The notes under the pieces were generated by a model. That model was not told the DNA's origin and ran no database searches. It was given only the letters and a program-made list of their open reading frames with translations. The position numbers and the translations under genes were made by a program. DNA of 64,000 nt. It comes from an uncultured Lachnospiraceae bacterium (GTDB taxonomy: Bacteria; Bacillota; Clostridia; Lachnospirales; Lachnospiraceae). The DNA lies in assembly GCA_944377405.1 (NCBI GenBank), contig CALWES010000006.1:62001-126000 (forward strand), written 5' to 3'. Positions 50,488 to 60,833 of the stretch are shown here, one piece after another (within the stretch, counting starts at the first letter, position 1; every line of letters begins with the position of its first letter).

Positions 50488-50745
50488 ATGAAATCAAATT
50501 TGCATCCGGCTTCCATTCAAAAGAAGCTTCAAAAAGAATTCCTGAATCGTTTTAACGTCATAAAACAAAAGGACTCTCGCAGAAAAGCTCCGGCCTATAA
50601 AGAAAAGCAGCAGCTACTTCATCTGATAAATGCTTCAACTGCGGTCTCTCTATTATTAAAAGCCCCTCTTGATCTTTCCAAAGAAGACCAGAAGGAACTT
50701 CGATTTAATCTAAAAAAGGAGGTAAATCGGATATGGCCAAAATAA
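50488..50745 (+). CDS. Small basic protein (85 aa), possible relaxase accessory
   Basis: A Lys/Arg-rich helical protein starting MKSNLHPASIQKKLQ, preceded by AAAGGAAA. It overlaps the start of the relaxase-like gene by 13 bp, so the two are coupled. Not recognised; size, charge and place suggest a DNA-binding helper. Confidence 0.5.
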   Translation: MKSNLHPASIQKKLQKEFLNRFNVIKQKDSRRKAPAYKEKQQLLHLINASTAVSLLLKAPLDLSKEDQKELRFNLKKEVNRIWPK

Positions 50746-51359
50746 TTTTCCTGCCACAAAAGAACATGCAAACAGAAGATGGGAATTATATATGGAACTA
50801 TAAAAATGAGCTTTCGTGCCAGAATGTTTGCGGCTACATATTAAATCCTCCCTTTCCTCTGATCTGGATGTTTGGATTCGGTGTCCCCTATCAGGATGCT
50901 GCTTACGCTGCCAAAGCTTTCCTGTATACCCAGTACCTATTCCGTAAAACCGGCGGGCGCAGGATCAGACATGAGGTGCTGGTATTCGATAGCCCAGAAG
51001 AATATATCGATCCCATGGGCATCAATCGTATCATAGAAATTGCATTTCTATGTGGGGCCCTTTATTATAGTCTAGGCTTTCAGACACTTGTTTCCGTCTG
51101 GCCCCATGATAAGGATAATCAGCGAAACCTCCCTGAGATACACTTTGTTATAAACACAGTATCCTTTGTGGAAGGCCATAAATACAGTAGCAACATAGCC
51201 AGAAGGGCTGAACAGGAAGCGTATTTTAATCAGATCATACAGTTCTACACAAAGGGCGGCCCGCCGCCGGTATGCCCTCAATATGCGGAACCGGATTATT
51301 CAGATTTGGTCTATTTACCGGCGATCTTTTTCACAGCACCAACATATACTCAAAGTTAA
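50733..51359 (+). CDS. Short relaxase-like protein (208 aa)
   Basis: A 208-residue protein with the relaxase-like order of motifs: CGYILNP (Tyr35), RRIRHEVLVFDSPEE, then GFQTLVSVWPHDKD (His125) and EIHFVINTVSFVEGHKY (His137, Asn141). In MOBP-type relaxases this is the Tyr motif and the HxD...HxHxxxN metal motif; here the second His of HxH is Val. The length covers only the catalytic domain. AAAGGAGGT before the start. Alternative: a non-catalytic relaxase relative. Confidence 0.5.
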   Translation: MAKIIFLPQKNMQTEDGNYIWNYKNELSCQNVCGYILNPPFPLIWMFGFGVPYQDAAYAAKAFLYTQYLFRKTGGRRIRHEVLVFDSPEEYIDPMGINRIIEIAFLCGALYYSLGFQTLVSVWPHDKDNQRNLPEIHFVINTVSFVEGHKYSSNIARRAEQEAYFNQIIQFYTKGGPPPVCPQYAEPDYSDLVYLPAIFFTAPTYTQS

Positions 51360-51471: not shown

Positions 51472-54400
51472 TTAACGCTGTTTCTTTGTTCGCGTTGCTT
51501 TGGAAGGGGTTGCCAGGATTTCATCCGTCTTATTCTCCTCGTCTTCATCGTCCTCTTCTTCCTTATCTTTATCGGGTTTCTGCGACGGTTTAGACGGACG
51601 CCGGTTTGGAACAGATGGCGTACTGAGGCTTTCTGTAGGTTCTTCCTCTACCTCGATTTCATTTACCTCTTTCAAGAGAAGTTCCTCTTCTTCCTCTCCA
51701 TAGTTTTGACTATAAATGGTCTGCCCAGCAACACAATCCACCACTACTATTGTCTTTTCCGGATCCGCATACCATGTATAGCTGTAGTTGTTTAACGGGA
51801 TCACCTTTCCGTTTCCTGTAAAGGTCTTAAGGTTATTAACGTAACTCATGTAAAGACCTTCAAGAGCCGGACACCCACTTACATCTAAATCTTCAAGGAA
51901 CTTCACCCTATACAAATCCAATCTTCTCAGCTTTTTAAGATGTGTCAAATCCAACTCAGTGATATCAACAGAAGACAATCTCAAAGCTTCGATATTTGGG
52001 CAACCGGAAAAGTCGACCTCCTCTATCTGAATTTCCGTCGGCACGCCGCCATCTACATTCAACTGCCTTAAAGTCTTCGTACTGGGCCATGTGACTTCTA
52101 CCTCACTGCAAGTTTCAAAAATTAATGTCTCAAGTTGATTCAAATGGCTGAAGTCCCATATAGCTTTTTTACCATGATCCTTATAAAGTATATCGTTATT
52201 AATGTTTACATATTTCAGCTTCGTTGCATCTTCAATATTACATTCTAAATCTGCATCATTATAATAGTGCAAAATTAACTTCTCAACATTTTTAGGTAAG
52301 GAAAGTCTTTTGAGCCCTGATATGGGGGGCTGACTTGGTTCTATAGAAATATCCCTAACATCCGGTGCCTTTGAAAAATCGAGTTCCTCAATTGTACACG
52401 CAGGTGCATATTTGCTATTGTAAGACGATACATAAAAAGCAGTAACTTTAAAAGGATCATCTGGGCCCGACTGTTCACGAATATACTGTGGAACCAGAAG
52501 ACTGTACCCTCCTGTTTCAGGATTTTCTACTGGAGATATCCATCCTGTTGTCTCATCATATCCAGGCCATGTTGAGGAAATATCATTTCCATACTGGTCA
52601 AAGGCCTGGAAACTATACTGACTTATATCTTCATTCTTATATGTACCAAAGCTTATAAAACCCTCTTGCTTAATGATTTCAGACTCTCCATTATAATTTG
52701 CACTGTAAATCGTCTGTCCTGCTTTGCAGTCCTTTGCATCAATCGATTTTGTCTTTTTCTGATCCGAATACCACTTTAACTTATCAGGATATGCTTTTCC
52801 GTTACCAACAAAGACCTCCAAGCTGCTGTTGATCTTTAAATCACCAGCCGTAAGGTTTTCATTCTTACTGATATCCAGCTTCCTGATGTCAGTGTCTTTG
52901 ATGTCAAGATGCTTAAGCGCTTTATTGGCACTTACGTCAAGTTCTGTAAGCAGCCCGGCCTTAATACTGATATCCTCTACGGCTGAGTCTTTTCCATTTG
53001 GAAGGGTTATACTGTCAAGTTTTTCTGAAGCAATGTCAATTGTCTTCAACTTATTATTTTTACTTAGATCGATTTCGGAAAACTGATTGCCGTTTCCTGT
53101 CAAGGTCAGCTTTGTTAATTCGGTCGCATCAGCATAATTGCATTCAAACTCTTCTGCAAGATCAGCATTGATCGTAAGCGTTTTAATACCCTTTGGCAAT
53201 ACCAGCTTGCTCCACTCTGCTTCCAAAATATCAATTGATTTATCAACAACAAGACCTGTTACTTTATAGGGTTTCTTTTTCCCATTTTCCTCCTTCAGAA
53301 TATACTCAGGACAAATGAATTCATACTTCCTGTCCTTATCTATCGTCGGGTAAGACAATTCCTCTTTTTCCTTGCCGTTCTCGTCACATACCGTAAAAAC
53401 ATCTCTGGTGTCGCTTACCGTAATTGATGTCTCATTCTCAATTGTTTTTGAACCCCATATCGGAAGTTTCACTATTTCTAAAGGTCCAAAATCATGTTTT
53501 ATATTAAACGGGGTATTTCCTTTTTTGGTTTGAACGGCTACCCTTACATGTGCATCAAGATCCACTTGAAAGAAGGCTTCACCTCCGGACACCTTCGAAT
53601 CGCTTATATCCCAATGCTCCATCTCTGATGTTTTTTTTGCCGTAAATTCCATCCCCGCATCAGAAAATTTAAGATAAGCCTTAGGGCCGCCTCCAACAGG
53701 TACCATGCCACAGATCGAGCCGCATATCATAGGGTAAACTCCAACCTGTGCTTCATCCACTTTTGCCGCAATATTTAACTCGTCACTCGTAACCGGATCC
53801 TGACAACTCGACAAGTTATTGACTGTTGGAATCAAGCTATCGTCTGAATCTATCACCTCAACTCCAATTGTAAAATCGTACTTGGTGGTTTCTGTCCAGG
53901 TTATCGAAAGTCCACCGTCTCCCTTCCAGACAAGACATAAAACCATACCCAAATAAATAGATGGCATTTTTAATTTGGCCGACTCATCTCCGGAATTGAT
54001 CATGTCATCCACGGTCGCTATTGTCACTGAACCTGGGCGAATATTAGCGCCAACGCCTATCAGCGGAACAAGTCCCAGATCCTCAAAATCGAGGCCCTGT
54101 ATTGCAAGAGAGAAGAACTTGATGGCGTTATTTCGATCTTCTTTTGCGTTAGCCTTCACCTCATTCAGTTTATTCTTTACGCCATCATTAAATCCAGATT
54201 CAATTTTTCCAAAAACTTCTTTTCCCTTTTCTGTAGCAGCCTCTGATGCAGAAGCAATGATCGGAATTTTGGCTTTCAAACCCAACTCCTGTTTAGCTTC
54301 TGTCGTTATATCTGTTTTAAATACGAGGATTTGATCATTATTCTTATTCGGCAAATCACATGTATCGACTAAATATTTATCCGTCAGCGGTATTTGCATT

Positions 54401-56067
54401 CTAACCACCGTATTTTTGGGTTCTGCACTGAATGATGGGCTCCATTTAAAGCTGTCAATATATTGCTCGATAAACTTATTTAATTCCTGATTGGAACACA
54501 CCTTAGGAATGAGTTCCTTCAGATTTACCGAGGTATTGATTACAAGTTTTCCATTATCGACTGCAATGCCGGGGTTTTCGACCACTGCCCTGCTCCGCAT
54601 CCGACTTCTTGTATTTTCCTGATTTTCATCCCCCGCAAGAGACCATGTAACCAGTGATTCAATATTTTCTTCCGTGATGGCAGGAATTTCCAAATCAACA
54701 TTGGTTCCGGGCGCAAAAAGGTTAAATGGAGAGGCCTGCCATACATGAATGACCTCCATTTTTTCCGCATCATATCCTTCAAATGTCCCGGAATAATCAT
54801 CATCATGGGACTGATAAATGAAGGTCATGCCCGATGCAAACGCTTCAGTCGGCTCTATATAGATCACATCGTTTACATCATATCTGCCATCCAGAACATA
54901 CTGGTAGATCGGGTTATCTTCATATACTGCAAGCTCGCCCGTCCCATCTTCATATTGGCGATAATCAAAGATTCCATCATAAATCTCATCAAGAATCTCC
55001 TGCTCTGCCTGATTGTCTGCCTGTGCCACCTTAACATTATCGGCAGTCACAATGCGCTGCTCCTCTTCCTCCCCCTCTTTGAGCGGACGATACTCAATCG
55101 TGGCAGTTTGCTTCTCTGCCGTAAAATGAAGCACGGGTTCCTCTTCAGTCACCGAATGATAGCCAGTGATTGCAGGGATATGCACAATATAAGAATCCCC
55201 GATCTGTCCACTGACCGTTCTTTCCCCTATCTTCTTCTGATTTTCTGAATCAACATATTGAATCGTAATATTGCCAACGAACAGGGTTTTCCGATACATT
55301 ACATAGATCTCTGTATCCTTATTGGCAAACACTGCCTCTACCGGCTGTCCGTCTAAAATCTCATATCCTCCAAATACCTGATGCTCAATTGTAACGCTTT
55401 CACCGGGCTCTCCGGTCAACTCTTTTGTTCCAAGTACCTCTTTCGTATCGGCATCGATATATTTGACTGTGATCCGGACCTTTCCCTTTTCATCATCCGG
55501 GTTCGTCTCTTCTCCGCTGTTTCCATGATCTCCGGAAGTCCCACTACCTCCAGAAGAATAGCTGCCTCCAGAAGAGCCTCCCTGTACTGGCCCCCTCGTC
55601 TGAATGCCTTTGCCTGGTACATACTGTAAAACTCCATCAACTGTCCATCTTCCTTCTGCATCAACAGTATAGCCATCCGGCGTGGTGCAGTTTGTATAAA
55701 GCTTTCCATTGGCATCAAAACAATAGCAGTAACCATCGATCCACTGCCATGTACTTACAAATGCTCTGCCATAAAAGCCATCATGTATCGTGTTTAAAAA
55801 ATACCAATTTCCTCCTTCATAAAGCCACCCTGACCGGAGCGCACCCTGTACCGGCGCATCTTCCGATGGTTCAAGATAGTACCAGTCTTTTCTGGAATCC
55901 TGATACCAGCCTAAATGATTACGGACAATCCCCTCTTGCCCTTCATCCTCTCTCAGAAACCAGTTGTTTCCTTCCTGGTACCAGCTGCCCGCAACTGCAG
56001 TGTTCTGGAACATCATAACTGATGCCAATACCCATGCAATGGCTTGCTTCAGCTTTCGCTTCTTCAT
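51472..56067 (-). CDS. Large secreted surface protein (1531 aa) with wall-binding-like, MucBP-like and leucine-rich repeats
   Basis: Signal peptide (residues ~1-26), then aromatic choline-binding-like repeats (GWYQDSRKDWYYLEP, GWLYEGGNWYFLN, TWQWIDGYCYCF), a Gly/Ser spacer (~160-185), two MucBP-like modules (ITVKYIDADTKEVLG, ITIQYVDSENQKKIG), a long unique central region, and two blocks of leucine-rich-like repeats (about residues 985-1100 and 1245-1440, e.g. LTELDVSANKALKHLDI). The tail is acidic and basic-ended without LPXTG, so attachment is probably through the aromatic repeats. A role in adhesion is inferred. Its promoter contains a nine-G tract. Confidence 0.8.
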   Translation of the reverse strand: MKKRKLKQAIAWVLASVMMFQNTAVAGSWYQEGNNWFLREDEGQEGIVRNHLGWYQDSRKDWYYLEPSEDAPVQGALRSGWLYEGGNWYFLNTIHDGFYGRAFVSTWQWIDGYCYCFDANGKLYTNCTTPDGYTVDAEGRWTVDGVLQYVPGKGIQTRGPVQGGSSGGSYSSGGSGTSGDHGNSGEETNPDDEKGKVRITVKYIDADTKEVLGTKELTGEPGESVTIEHQVFGGYEILDGQPVEAVFANKDTEIYVMYRKTLFVGNITIQYVDSENQKKIGERTVSGQIGDSYIVHIPAITGYHSVTEEEPVLHFTAEKQTATIEYRPLKEGEEEEQRIVTADNVKVAQADNQAEQEILDEIYDGIFDYRQYEDGTGELAVYEDNPIYQYVLDGRYDVNDVIYIEPTEAFASGMTFIYQSHDDDYSGTFEGYDAEKMEVIHVWQASPFNLFAPGTNVDLEIPAITEENIESLVTWSLAGDENQENTRSRMRSRAVVENPGIAVDNGKLVINTSVNLKELIPKVCSNQELNKFIEQYIDSFKWSPSFSAEPKNTVVRMQIPLTDKYLVDTCDLPNKNNDQILVFKTDITTEAKQELGLKAKIPIIASASEAATEKGKEVFGKIESGFNDGVKNKLNEVKANAKEDRNNAIKFFSLAIQGLDFEDLGLVPLIGVGANIRPGSVTIATVDDMINSGDESAKLKMPSIYLGMVLCLVWKGDGGLSITWTETTKYDFTIGVEVIDSDDSLIPTVNNLSSCQDPVTSDELNIAAKVDEAQVGVYPMICGSICGMVPVGGGPKAYLKFSDAGMEFTAKKTSEMEHWDISDSKVSGGEAFFQVDLDAHVRVAVQTKKGNTPFNIKHDFGPLEIVKLPIWGSKTIENETSITVSDTRDVFTVCDENGKEKEELSYPTIDKDRKYEFICPEYILKEENGKKKPYKVTGLVVDKSIDILEAEWSKLVLPKGIKTLTINADLAEEFECNYADATELTKLTLTGNGNQFSEIDLSKNNKLKTIDIASEKLDSITLPNGKDSAVEDISIKAGLLTELDVSANKALKHLDIKDTDIRKLDISKNENLTAGDLKINSSLEVFVGNGKAYPDKLKWYSDQKKTKSIDAKDCKAGQTIYSANYNGESEIIKQEGFISFGTYKNEDISQYSFQAFDQYGNDISSTWPGYDETTGWISPVENPETGGYSLLVPQYIREQSGPDDPFKVTAFYVSSYNSKYAPACTIEELDFSKAPDVRDISIEPSQPPISGLKRLSLPKNVEKLILHYYNDADLECNIEDATKLKYVNINNDILYKDHGKKAIWDFSHLNQLETLIFETCSEVEVTWPSTKTLRQLNVDGGVPTEIQIEEVDFSGCPNIEALRLSSVDITELDLTHLKKLRRLDLYRVKFLEDLDVSGCPALEGLYMSYVNNLKTFTGNGKVIPLNNYSYTWYADPEKTIVVVDCVAGQTIYSQNYGEEEEELLLKEVNEIEVEEEPTESLSTPSVPNRRPSKPSQKPDKDKEEEDDEDEENKTDEILATPSKATRTKKQR

Positions 56068-56161
56068 AACCTCACTACTCCTCCCCTATCGTTTGATTAT
56101 GTATGGATTTATCCGCCTGCCATTTTTCGACTGGCGGCTCCTTTCCAAATCATCTCATTCC

Positions 56162-56192
56162 ATTTTACCCCCCCCCGAATGCTTTCTGTCAA
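56162..56192 (-). promoter_or_regulatory. Probable phase-variable promoter with G9 tract
   Basis: Minus strand TTGACA (56187-56192), then a 19-bp spacer ending in nine G (56168-56176), then TAAAAT (56162-56167), about 95 bp before the surface-protein start. Loss of two G would give the optimal 17-bp spacer. Confidence 0.65.
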
Positions 56193-56265
56193 ACAATTTC
56201 CTTCATAATATAAACAAGAAAAAAGGACTGAAGCACTACCTCCAATCCTTTTCTTTCATTGATTA

Positions 56266-57402
56266 TTAGGGTTTACATCTTTTGCATGGATCATACCCCA
56301 TTGCAATCGCTTCATCCCGGCTCCCGTAGAATTCCTTTTTATTCCTCTCGCTCATATCGTCTACGCTTGAACAGCGGGGATAATGGAACTTATGGGAATT
56401 CGTATTGAGGATATAGGTCACCTCTGAAGCAACTGTTTCTTTTGAGCGATCCTCCTGAGGAATCCCGGAAGCCGTTTCTTTCCGAGTTGCCTCACTTTTT
56501 CCATCTGAATAATCATTACATGGATCGGTATTCCATGTAAGCGTCCTTCCATCAGAATAGGCTATGATCTCACCCTGTTTATCCGTCCTGTATAAGGCTA
56601 TATCTCGCGCTCTAAGCCTTTCTAAGGGCTCCTTGTGCGGATAGCCATAAGAATTATCATCTGCACAGGAAATAATCCCTATTTCAGGCTTTACAGCATC
56701 CAGAAAAGCTTCTGTCGTCGATGTTGAGGATCCATGATGACCAAGTACAAGCACATCTGCACTCAGATCTATTCCCGTCCCTGACATATCTTCTTCACTT
56801 TCTGCCTCTGCATCCCCTGTCAGCAGAAAAGAATTCTCTCCATGGACGATCTTAAGCGCTATGGAGTTGTTGTTAGGCGCTTCATCCTCAACACTTGGAG
56901 CAAGTACCGTAACCTGTGCCGAACCAAGGTTGAATTGCTCACCTACTGATGGGTGTTCAATCGTTTGTCCGGCTTTACCCACCGCATTAGCAAACGACCT
57001 GTACAAATCCGTATCGCCCTCATAATCCGGTCCTAACACATGACCTACATCAAATACGTTCAATGCTCCAATAAGACCCGCTATGTGGTCTGAATCATAA
57101 TGGGATGCCACCATGTAATCAAGCTCAGGTATTTCCTCATTTTTGAGATATGCTACAACATACGATGATCTGTCAGTATCTCCTCCATCATAAAGCATAT
57201 AGCTTCCGTCACACTCTACAAGTACAGATAGAGCCTGTCCAACATCAAGTACAGTAAAAACAAGGCTGGAATCTCCTGCCTCTCTGTTCCCCTGATTGGA
57301 TGCTGCAAGAACCGGCATCGGAAGCAGACAGCAAACTAACAAGAAGACAATAAATGATTGCAGAAATCTTTTTGCTCTTTGATATACCCGTTTCTTTGGC
57401 AT
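56266..57402 (-). CDS. Secreted ComEC/Rec2-like MBL-fold protein with C-terminal Cys-His domain
   Basis: A 378-residue exported protein: signal peptide (cleavage after VLAA, ~34), an MBL-fold domain of the ComEC type (VASHYDSDHIAGLIGAL as HxxxDH metal site, LLTGDAEAESE, LVLGHHGSSTS), then a short C-terminal domain with HYPRCSS and GYDPCKRCKP, as in small Ada-like metal-binding modules. Such free-standing secreted proteins may be nucleases. GGGAGG precedes the start. It lies 200 bp upstream of the surface-protein gene on the same strand. Confidence 0.8.
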   Translation of the reverse strand: MPKKRVYQRAKRFLQSFIVFLLVCCLLPMPVLAASNQGNREAGDSSLVFTVLDVGQALSVLVECDGSYMLYDGGDTDRSSYVVAYLKNEEIPELDYMVASHYDSDHIAGLIGALNVFDVGHVLGPDYEGDTDLYRSFANAVGKAGQTIEHPSVGEQFNLGSAQVTVLAPSVEDEAPNNNSIALKIVHGENSFLLTGDAEAESEEDMSGTGIDLSADVLVLGHHGSSTSTTEAFLDAVKPEIGIISCADDNSYGYPHKEPLERLRARDIALYRTDKQGEIIAYSDGRTLTWNTDPCNDYSDGKSEATRKETASGIPQEDRSKETVASEVTYILNTNSHKFHYPRCSSVDDMSERNKKEFYGSRDEAIAMGYDPCKRCKP

Positions 57403-57734: not shown

Positions 57735-57903
57735 CTCTATCTGATCCTTCGAGTTGCTGCTTTCTTGTATAATAGTATGCCTACTCTCTTTCAGTCAAGC
57801 AAGCCTCTCATTTATCGAGCATTTTCTACAAAAATATTGACTTTATATATATATATAATAGATACAAATTTTCTATAATTGATTTATGGAGGATATTGAT
57901 GTC

Positions 57904-60248: not shown

Positions 60249-60833
60249 CTATTTTTCATTGAACAAATATCTTTCATACCTTTCGACTCCATCTATACTA
60301 TTATCTATCCTATAATCCAAGCTTTTAATAAATCCATCAATTATACCTCTCATACTTTTTACCTCATATGGTACGTCAAATCTATTTCCTTTTAATCTAT
60401 CATAAGCACTGATTGCCAGGTGAATATGTATTTCTCCAGTATCGAGATGAACTCCAAATATACATAAATAGTCTTTGTACAATCCTTGAATAATATATCT
60501 TGCAAGGTTATATGCATCCACTGGAAGAAGATAGTCATATTTATGGAAACTTATGATCCTATGCTTTACCAAATCTGATCCATTGTTCTCTGATGAATAT
60601 ATACCCAAAAGAAGTTTCATCATACAAGACGCTTCAAAAGGATCGTGACTCATATATTCTGGTCCTATAAACGGAATACACCCGTTGAATTCTCCAAGTG
60701 CCTTTCCAGGTCTTACACGATCAAAGTTGGTTTTATTTACATTAAGTATATAATAGATTAGCTTTTCCACCGAATCCATATCCTTATAGCTCTCATGATT
60801 CCTTTCATTTACGCATTTAATAAAATATGGCAT
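60249..60833 (-). CDS. Short relaxase-like protein (194 aa)
   Basis: A 194-residue protein with LIYYILN (Tyr27/28), HRIISFHKYDYLLP, and CIFGVHLDTGEIHIHLAIS (His129, Asp131, His136, His138), the Tyr motif and the metal-binding HxD...HxH motif of MOBP-type relaxases, followed by KGNRFDV. It ends where a catalytic domain would, without helicase or primase part. It starts 25 bp inside the MobC-like gene. It would nick the element at oriT. Confidence 0.65.
   Translation of the reverse strand: MPYFIKCVNERNHESYKDMDSVEKLIYYILNVNKTNFDRVRPGKALGEFNGCIPFIGPEYMSHDPFEASCMMKLLLGIYSSENNGSDLVKHRIISFHKYDYLLPVDAYNLARYIIQGLYKDYLCIFGVHLDTGEIHIHLAISAYDRLKGNRFDVPYEVKSMRGIIDGFIKSLDYRIDNSIDGVERYERYLFNEK

Follow-up and report, generated by a model that had tools for sequence, protein, structure and literature searches.

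The promoter of a 1531-residue surface protein in the analyzed window, a stretch of 64,000 nucleotides from an uncultured Lachnospiraceae bacterium, carries a run of nine Gs between its -35 and -10 hexamers. This G-tract promoter is real and very probably functional. It appears to be the sole housekeeping-sigma promoter of the surface gene, and judged from sequence comparison it is quite likely to work as a slippage switch, that is, transcriptional phase variation of the porA/fetA type. Replication slippage would lengthen or shorten the G tract beside the -10, and the -35/-10 spacing would thereby shift from the present 19 bp. The sequenced allele, with 19 bp, would be transcribed weakly or be OFF, while the loss of one or two Gs would give 18 or 17 bp and turn the promoter ON. 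The outcome would be a mixed cell population with and without the surface protein.

The promoter and the surface-protein gene

The promoter lies on the minus strand (56192-56162) and is composed of TTGACA-GAAAGCATTC-GGGGGGGGG-TAAAAT, which corresponds to ATTTTACCCCCCCCCGAATGCTTTCTGTCAA in plus-strand letters. The sequence-only reading had described near-consensus TTGACA and TAAAAT hexamers 19 bp apart with G at nine spacer positions, and this description was exact, the spacer being N10 followed by G9. The elements of the promoter and the features around it are listed below.

51472..56067 (-), 1531-aa exported surface protein with signal peptide, choline/cell-wall-binding repeats, MucBP domains and weak LRR (from translation and domain matches)
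56113..56137 (-), small hairpin in the predicted 5' leader (weak evidence, z -1.6)
56162..56167 (-), -10 hexamer TAAAAT, 5/6 of the consensus, 19 bp from the -35 (from sequence)
56168..56176 (-), G9 homopolymer GGGGGGGGG adjoining the -10, the proposed slippage tract (from sequence and position-specific recurrence)
56177..56186 (-), non-G part of the spacer, GAAAGCATTC, 10 bp (from sequence)
56187..56192 (-), -35 hexamer TTGACA, a perfect match to the consensus
56219..56254 (-), strong intrinsic terminator behind the upstream MBL-fold gene; its end lies 27 nt ahead of the -35 (fold -19.7 kcal/mol, z -5.0)
56266..57402 (-), upstream gene with its own terminator, encoding an exported ComEC-like metallo-beta-lactamase-fold (MBL-fold) protein with a C-terminal Ada-type metal-binding domain

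The promoter and the surface-protein ORF are separated by 94 nt containing a good Shine-Dalgarno sequence (AGGGGAGGAG). The promoter had been assigned to a 1531-residue surface protein from the start, in agreement with the signal peptide, wall-binding repeats and MucBP domains of this ORF. The minus strand between the two genes displayed one other promoter match, ATGGCA-16-CATAAT, at 9/12 positions. With the upstream gene closed off by its terminator, the G9 promoter remains as the one good candidate for driving the surface gene and is predicted to be its own, with no read-through and no better promoter. Two further roles of the tract were considered and rejected, a G-quadruplex by the reasoning that a single G9 run cannot give four G-runs, and transcriptional slippage because the tract is located upstream of the predicted start.

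Relaxase fragments were identified on either side of the region (50733-51359 and 60249-60833). Genes for a resolvase, RecT, YqaJ, RadC and a HerA/TraG-like ATPase are located to the left of the locus, and a tyrosine recombinase is located at the right edge. The locus is thus likely part of an integrated, partly decayed mobile element, and the earlier placement of the gene on a mobile element is plausible. No homologue for the core of the 1531-aa protein was found in the 397 genomes of the family or in the viral contigs of IMG/VR, and within the genus the N-terminal wall-binding repeats alone gave matches (best 48% over ~150 aa). Such a setting may be the reason that the surface gene has no close homologue. 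No plasmid match was found for the focal promoter region.

Recurrence of G-tract promoters

In the window, two G8 matches were observed against 6.1 expected from dinucleotide shuffles, and five G7 matches against 21.7. Since G runs are rarer than in the shuffles, a long run by itself proves nothing, and it is the position relative to the -10 that carries the signal. The pattern TTGACA-N{15,21}-TAWAAT had three matches in the window against 0.12 expected. Pattern searches of the 1.9 Mb genome (17 contigs) detected two G9+ tracts, and each of them adjoins TARAAT and precedes a gene encoding an exported protein. The second G9 tract (genome C3:131579-131587; L001:1501-1509) adjoins TAGAAT and is located 87 nt before a lipoprotein gene (367 aa), which had no homologue in the genus; its best -35 is TTGTTT at a spacing of 17 bp. 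Genus mates (L255, L259) also have TTGTTT in their G7/G8 promoters. The longest run seen, a G16 adjoining TAAAAT near a contig end, was found in a genus mate (L256:100-115).

The same architecture recurred throughout the family and the class. TTGACA-N{2,16}-G7+TANAAT gave 43 matches in 397 genomes of the family and none for the reversed control, and 16 versus 0 in 391 genomes of the class, while G8+TANAAT gave 49 versus 1 in 200 genomes of the family. When the offset was left free, 37 distinct G8+ tracts (tallied by hand from the match list) had TANAAT at offset 0, compared with 34 over offsets 1-16, or 2.1 per offset. Among the matches listed, the Lachnospiraceae with this architecture included Roseburia sp., Blautia sp., Schaedlerella and Mediterraneibacter, and those beyond the Lachnospiraceae included other Clostridia, Saccharibacteria, Treponema, Streptococcus suis, Veillonella, Streptobacillus and others. 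A chance coincidence or an assembly artefact could be considered given that homopolymers are error-prone and the assembly consists of 17 contigs. However, the reversed controls, the location of both G9 tracts of the genome at -10 hexamers and the presence of the architecture in named isolates (Schaedlerella arabinosiphila and Streptococcus suis among them) all argue against this explanation, which we regard as extremely improbable.

The genes downstream of G-tract promoters preferentially encoded exported proteins. Taking as downstream gene the one within 350 nt, and calling signal peptides by a simple rule-based test, signal peptides were found in 23/39 downstream genes versus 42/178 other genes from the same DNA in the family census (p=3e-5). 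In the named-organism scan, they were found among the matches listed in 73/103 versus 63/350 (p=3e-23). The exported share was 59-71% downstream of G-tract promoters versus 18-24% in other genes. Pfam matches of the downstream genes comprised BspA-type LRR, wall-binding repeats, MucBP, Ig-like domains, solute-binding proteins and some ABC transporters.

Tract length and spacer length

Tract lengths differed between homologous promoters. In the window's own genus, the promoters of paralogous surface genes from species G218 and G219 are near-identical, TTGTTTTTCCCG(A/G)CT-G8/G7-TATAAT, and in their pairwise alignment one G is the sole indel between the -35 and a point ~45 nt into the coding sequence, leader included. 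In three sister species of another genus, orthologous ABC-transporter promoters carry G11, G9 and G10, while the -35, the -10 and the leader are conserved. The viral contigs L094 and L100 (G12) are 99.7% identical over 7.3 kb to L235, with gaps confined to the tract, which in L235 is 15 nt long (GGGGTGGGTGGGGGG) and includes two Ts that may reflect sequencing error. In several clusters of homologous G-tract promoters, the tracts differed in length by 1-2. Between-species differences in length do not measure a switching rate. The proposal of a slippage device made in the sequence-only reading has thus gained strong support from recurrence, from the bias to exported proteins and from length differences in homologous promoters with otherwise almost gap-free flanks; for the focal locus itself, which is represented by one assembly, no close homologue was found that would allow a length comparison.

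Not every G tract adjoining TATAAT is variable. In all eight contigs found (L096, L099, L102, L104, L107 and L109-L111), viral or phage promoters of the L096 type keep TTGACACAGGGGGGGTATAAT, with G7 and a spacer of 9 bp. Viral scans anchored on the flanks detected no length variants for three promoters, and for one promoter they yielded no new contigs. The focal promoter might be a static, weak one, with the G run serving as a neutral spacer or structural element and the lengths differing between species with no rapid switching. The constant G7 of the L096 type would agree with this, as would the focal locus, known from a single assembly, at which no within-strain variation was seen. Against it, G runs are under-represented elsewhere yet accumulate at offset 0 from the -10, the indels near the compared promoters lie in the tract, and the bias to exported proteins is strong. 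A static promoter is therefore unlikely in our judgement, and a slippage switch is preferred.

A further group of phage promoters (L098, L103, L105 and L106) is related by the form TTGACA-N-G7/G8/G10-TAGAAT, and at least three of these are framed by the inverted repeat AATTGC...GCAATT. The genes behind them differ, some displaying SWIM-like Cys motifs.

The spacers of G-tract promoters ranged from 14 to 22 bp. After dereplication, 17 bp was found in 12/133, while 16, 18, 19 and 20 bp were found in 23, 28, 38 and 15, respectively. The commonest spacer was thus 19 bp, as in the focal promoter. Ordinary TTGACA-TANAAT promoters from the same DNA peaked at 17 bp (26/51), and the 17-bp share differed between the two groups with p=3e-9; the dip of the G-tract promoters at 17 bp relative to the neighbouring 16 and 18 bp was modest (p=0.009). 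A 19-bp spacer is expected to give a weak promoter, and the sequenced G-tract copies may mostly have been caught in weak or OFF states. If the G-tract promoters are contingency promoters, the 17-bp deficit in assembled genomes would mean that most copies are in a non-optimal state.

Spacers of 19-20 bp are also characteristic of MerR-family targets, which are activated by a regulator twisting the spacer DNA. A fixed, regulator-dependent promoter of this kind would suit the focal spacer of 19 bp, and in the family set lengths of 18-20 bp were the most frequent. However, a dyad-symmetric operator within a spacer fixed at 19-20 bp would then be expected, and there is no dyad in GAAAGCATTCGGGGGGGGG (GAAAGCATTC-G9). 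Furthermore, the spacers of the class extend from 14 to 22 bp, the tract changes in length between homologous promoters, and what recurs is a G run and not an operator. We consider regulation of the MerR type doubtful at best, and a tract that alters the spacing by slippage remains the favoured reading.

Known slippage promoters and implications for gut Clostridia

A few pathogens, with Neisseria among the best known, provide the textbook cases of promoter slippage. In the fimbrial (fim) promoters of Bordetella, slippage of a poly-C tract near the -10 sets the promoter strength of a surface structure, and these promoters need the activator BvgA and are not known to have a canonical -35. The focal promoter would resemble them in the slippage of a C/G run near the -10 but has a perfect -35. 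The pilus switch of Bifidobacterium breve reportedly has its tract in the coding region (translational) and not in a promoter spacer. These pilus genes with G tracts are similar in representing a surface-structure slippage switch in a Gram-positive gut commensal (PMC9187656).

For the Neisseria porA and fetA (frpB) promoters, a slippage switch acting through a poly-G/poly-C tract between -35 and -10 is established (PMC5320596, citing van der Ende 1995, Carson 2000). Both settings share a homopolymer within a sigma-70 promoter spacer and a surface-protein gene behind it, and in Neisseria the tract also differs in length from strain to strain (PMC5320596). Promoters of this type are recognized by a homopolymer of at least 7-8 nt within the -35/-10 spacer and by a surface or exported product; the focal promoter has G9 in 19 bp and precedes a gene whose product has a signal peptide, cell-wall-binding repeats and MucBP domains. 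It differs in belonging to a Gram-positive anaerobe, in its near-consensus hexamers, in the tract adjoining the -10 and in the surface protein itself, and the link between tract length and expression is a prediction here.

Stochastic promoter switching in gut bacteria is also represented by the invertible promoters of Clostridioides difficile and Bacteroidales, which depend on DNA inversion by recombinases in contrast to the homopolymer slippage proposed for the focal promoter (PMC11868660). In that phase-variation review, as searched, clostridia are mentioned only for the C. difficile invertible promoters and signalling (PMC11868660). Phase variation in gut Clostridia has so far been studied mainly via DNA inversions. 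No prior report of a promoter homopolymer switch in Lachnospiraceae was found in the open-licence literature searched; the mechanism is already known, and the family is the setting for which no report was found.

On balance, we lean towards the view that contingency promoters (TTGACA-N-G7-12-TANAAT) are widespread, though unreported, in gut Lachnospiraceae and other Clostridia, each of them separately switching an exported protein, a lipoprotein or, in some cases, an ABC transporter. Should the pattern hold across the family, a large number of surface proteins in abundant gut commensals would vary stochastically from cell to cell.

The window contains another promoter with a repetitive spacer, TTGACT-TTATATATATA-TATAAT (57837-57859, +), in which a TA-dinucleotide repeat occupies the 11-bp spacer. 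It directly precedes a small lipoprotein ORF (start 57904, ~73 aa) and is possibly a second promoter of the slippage type.
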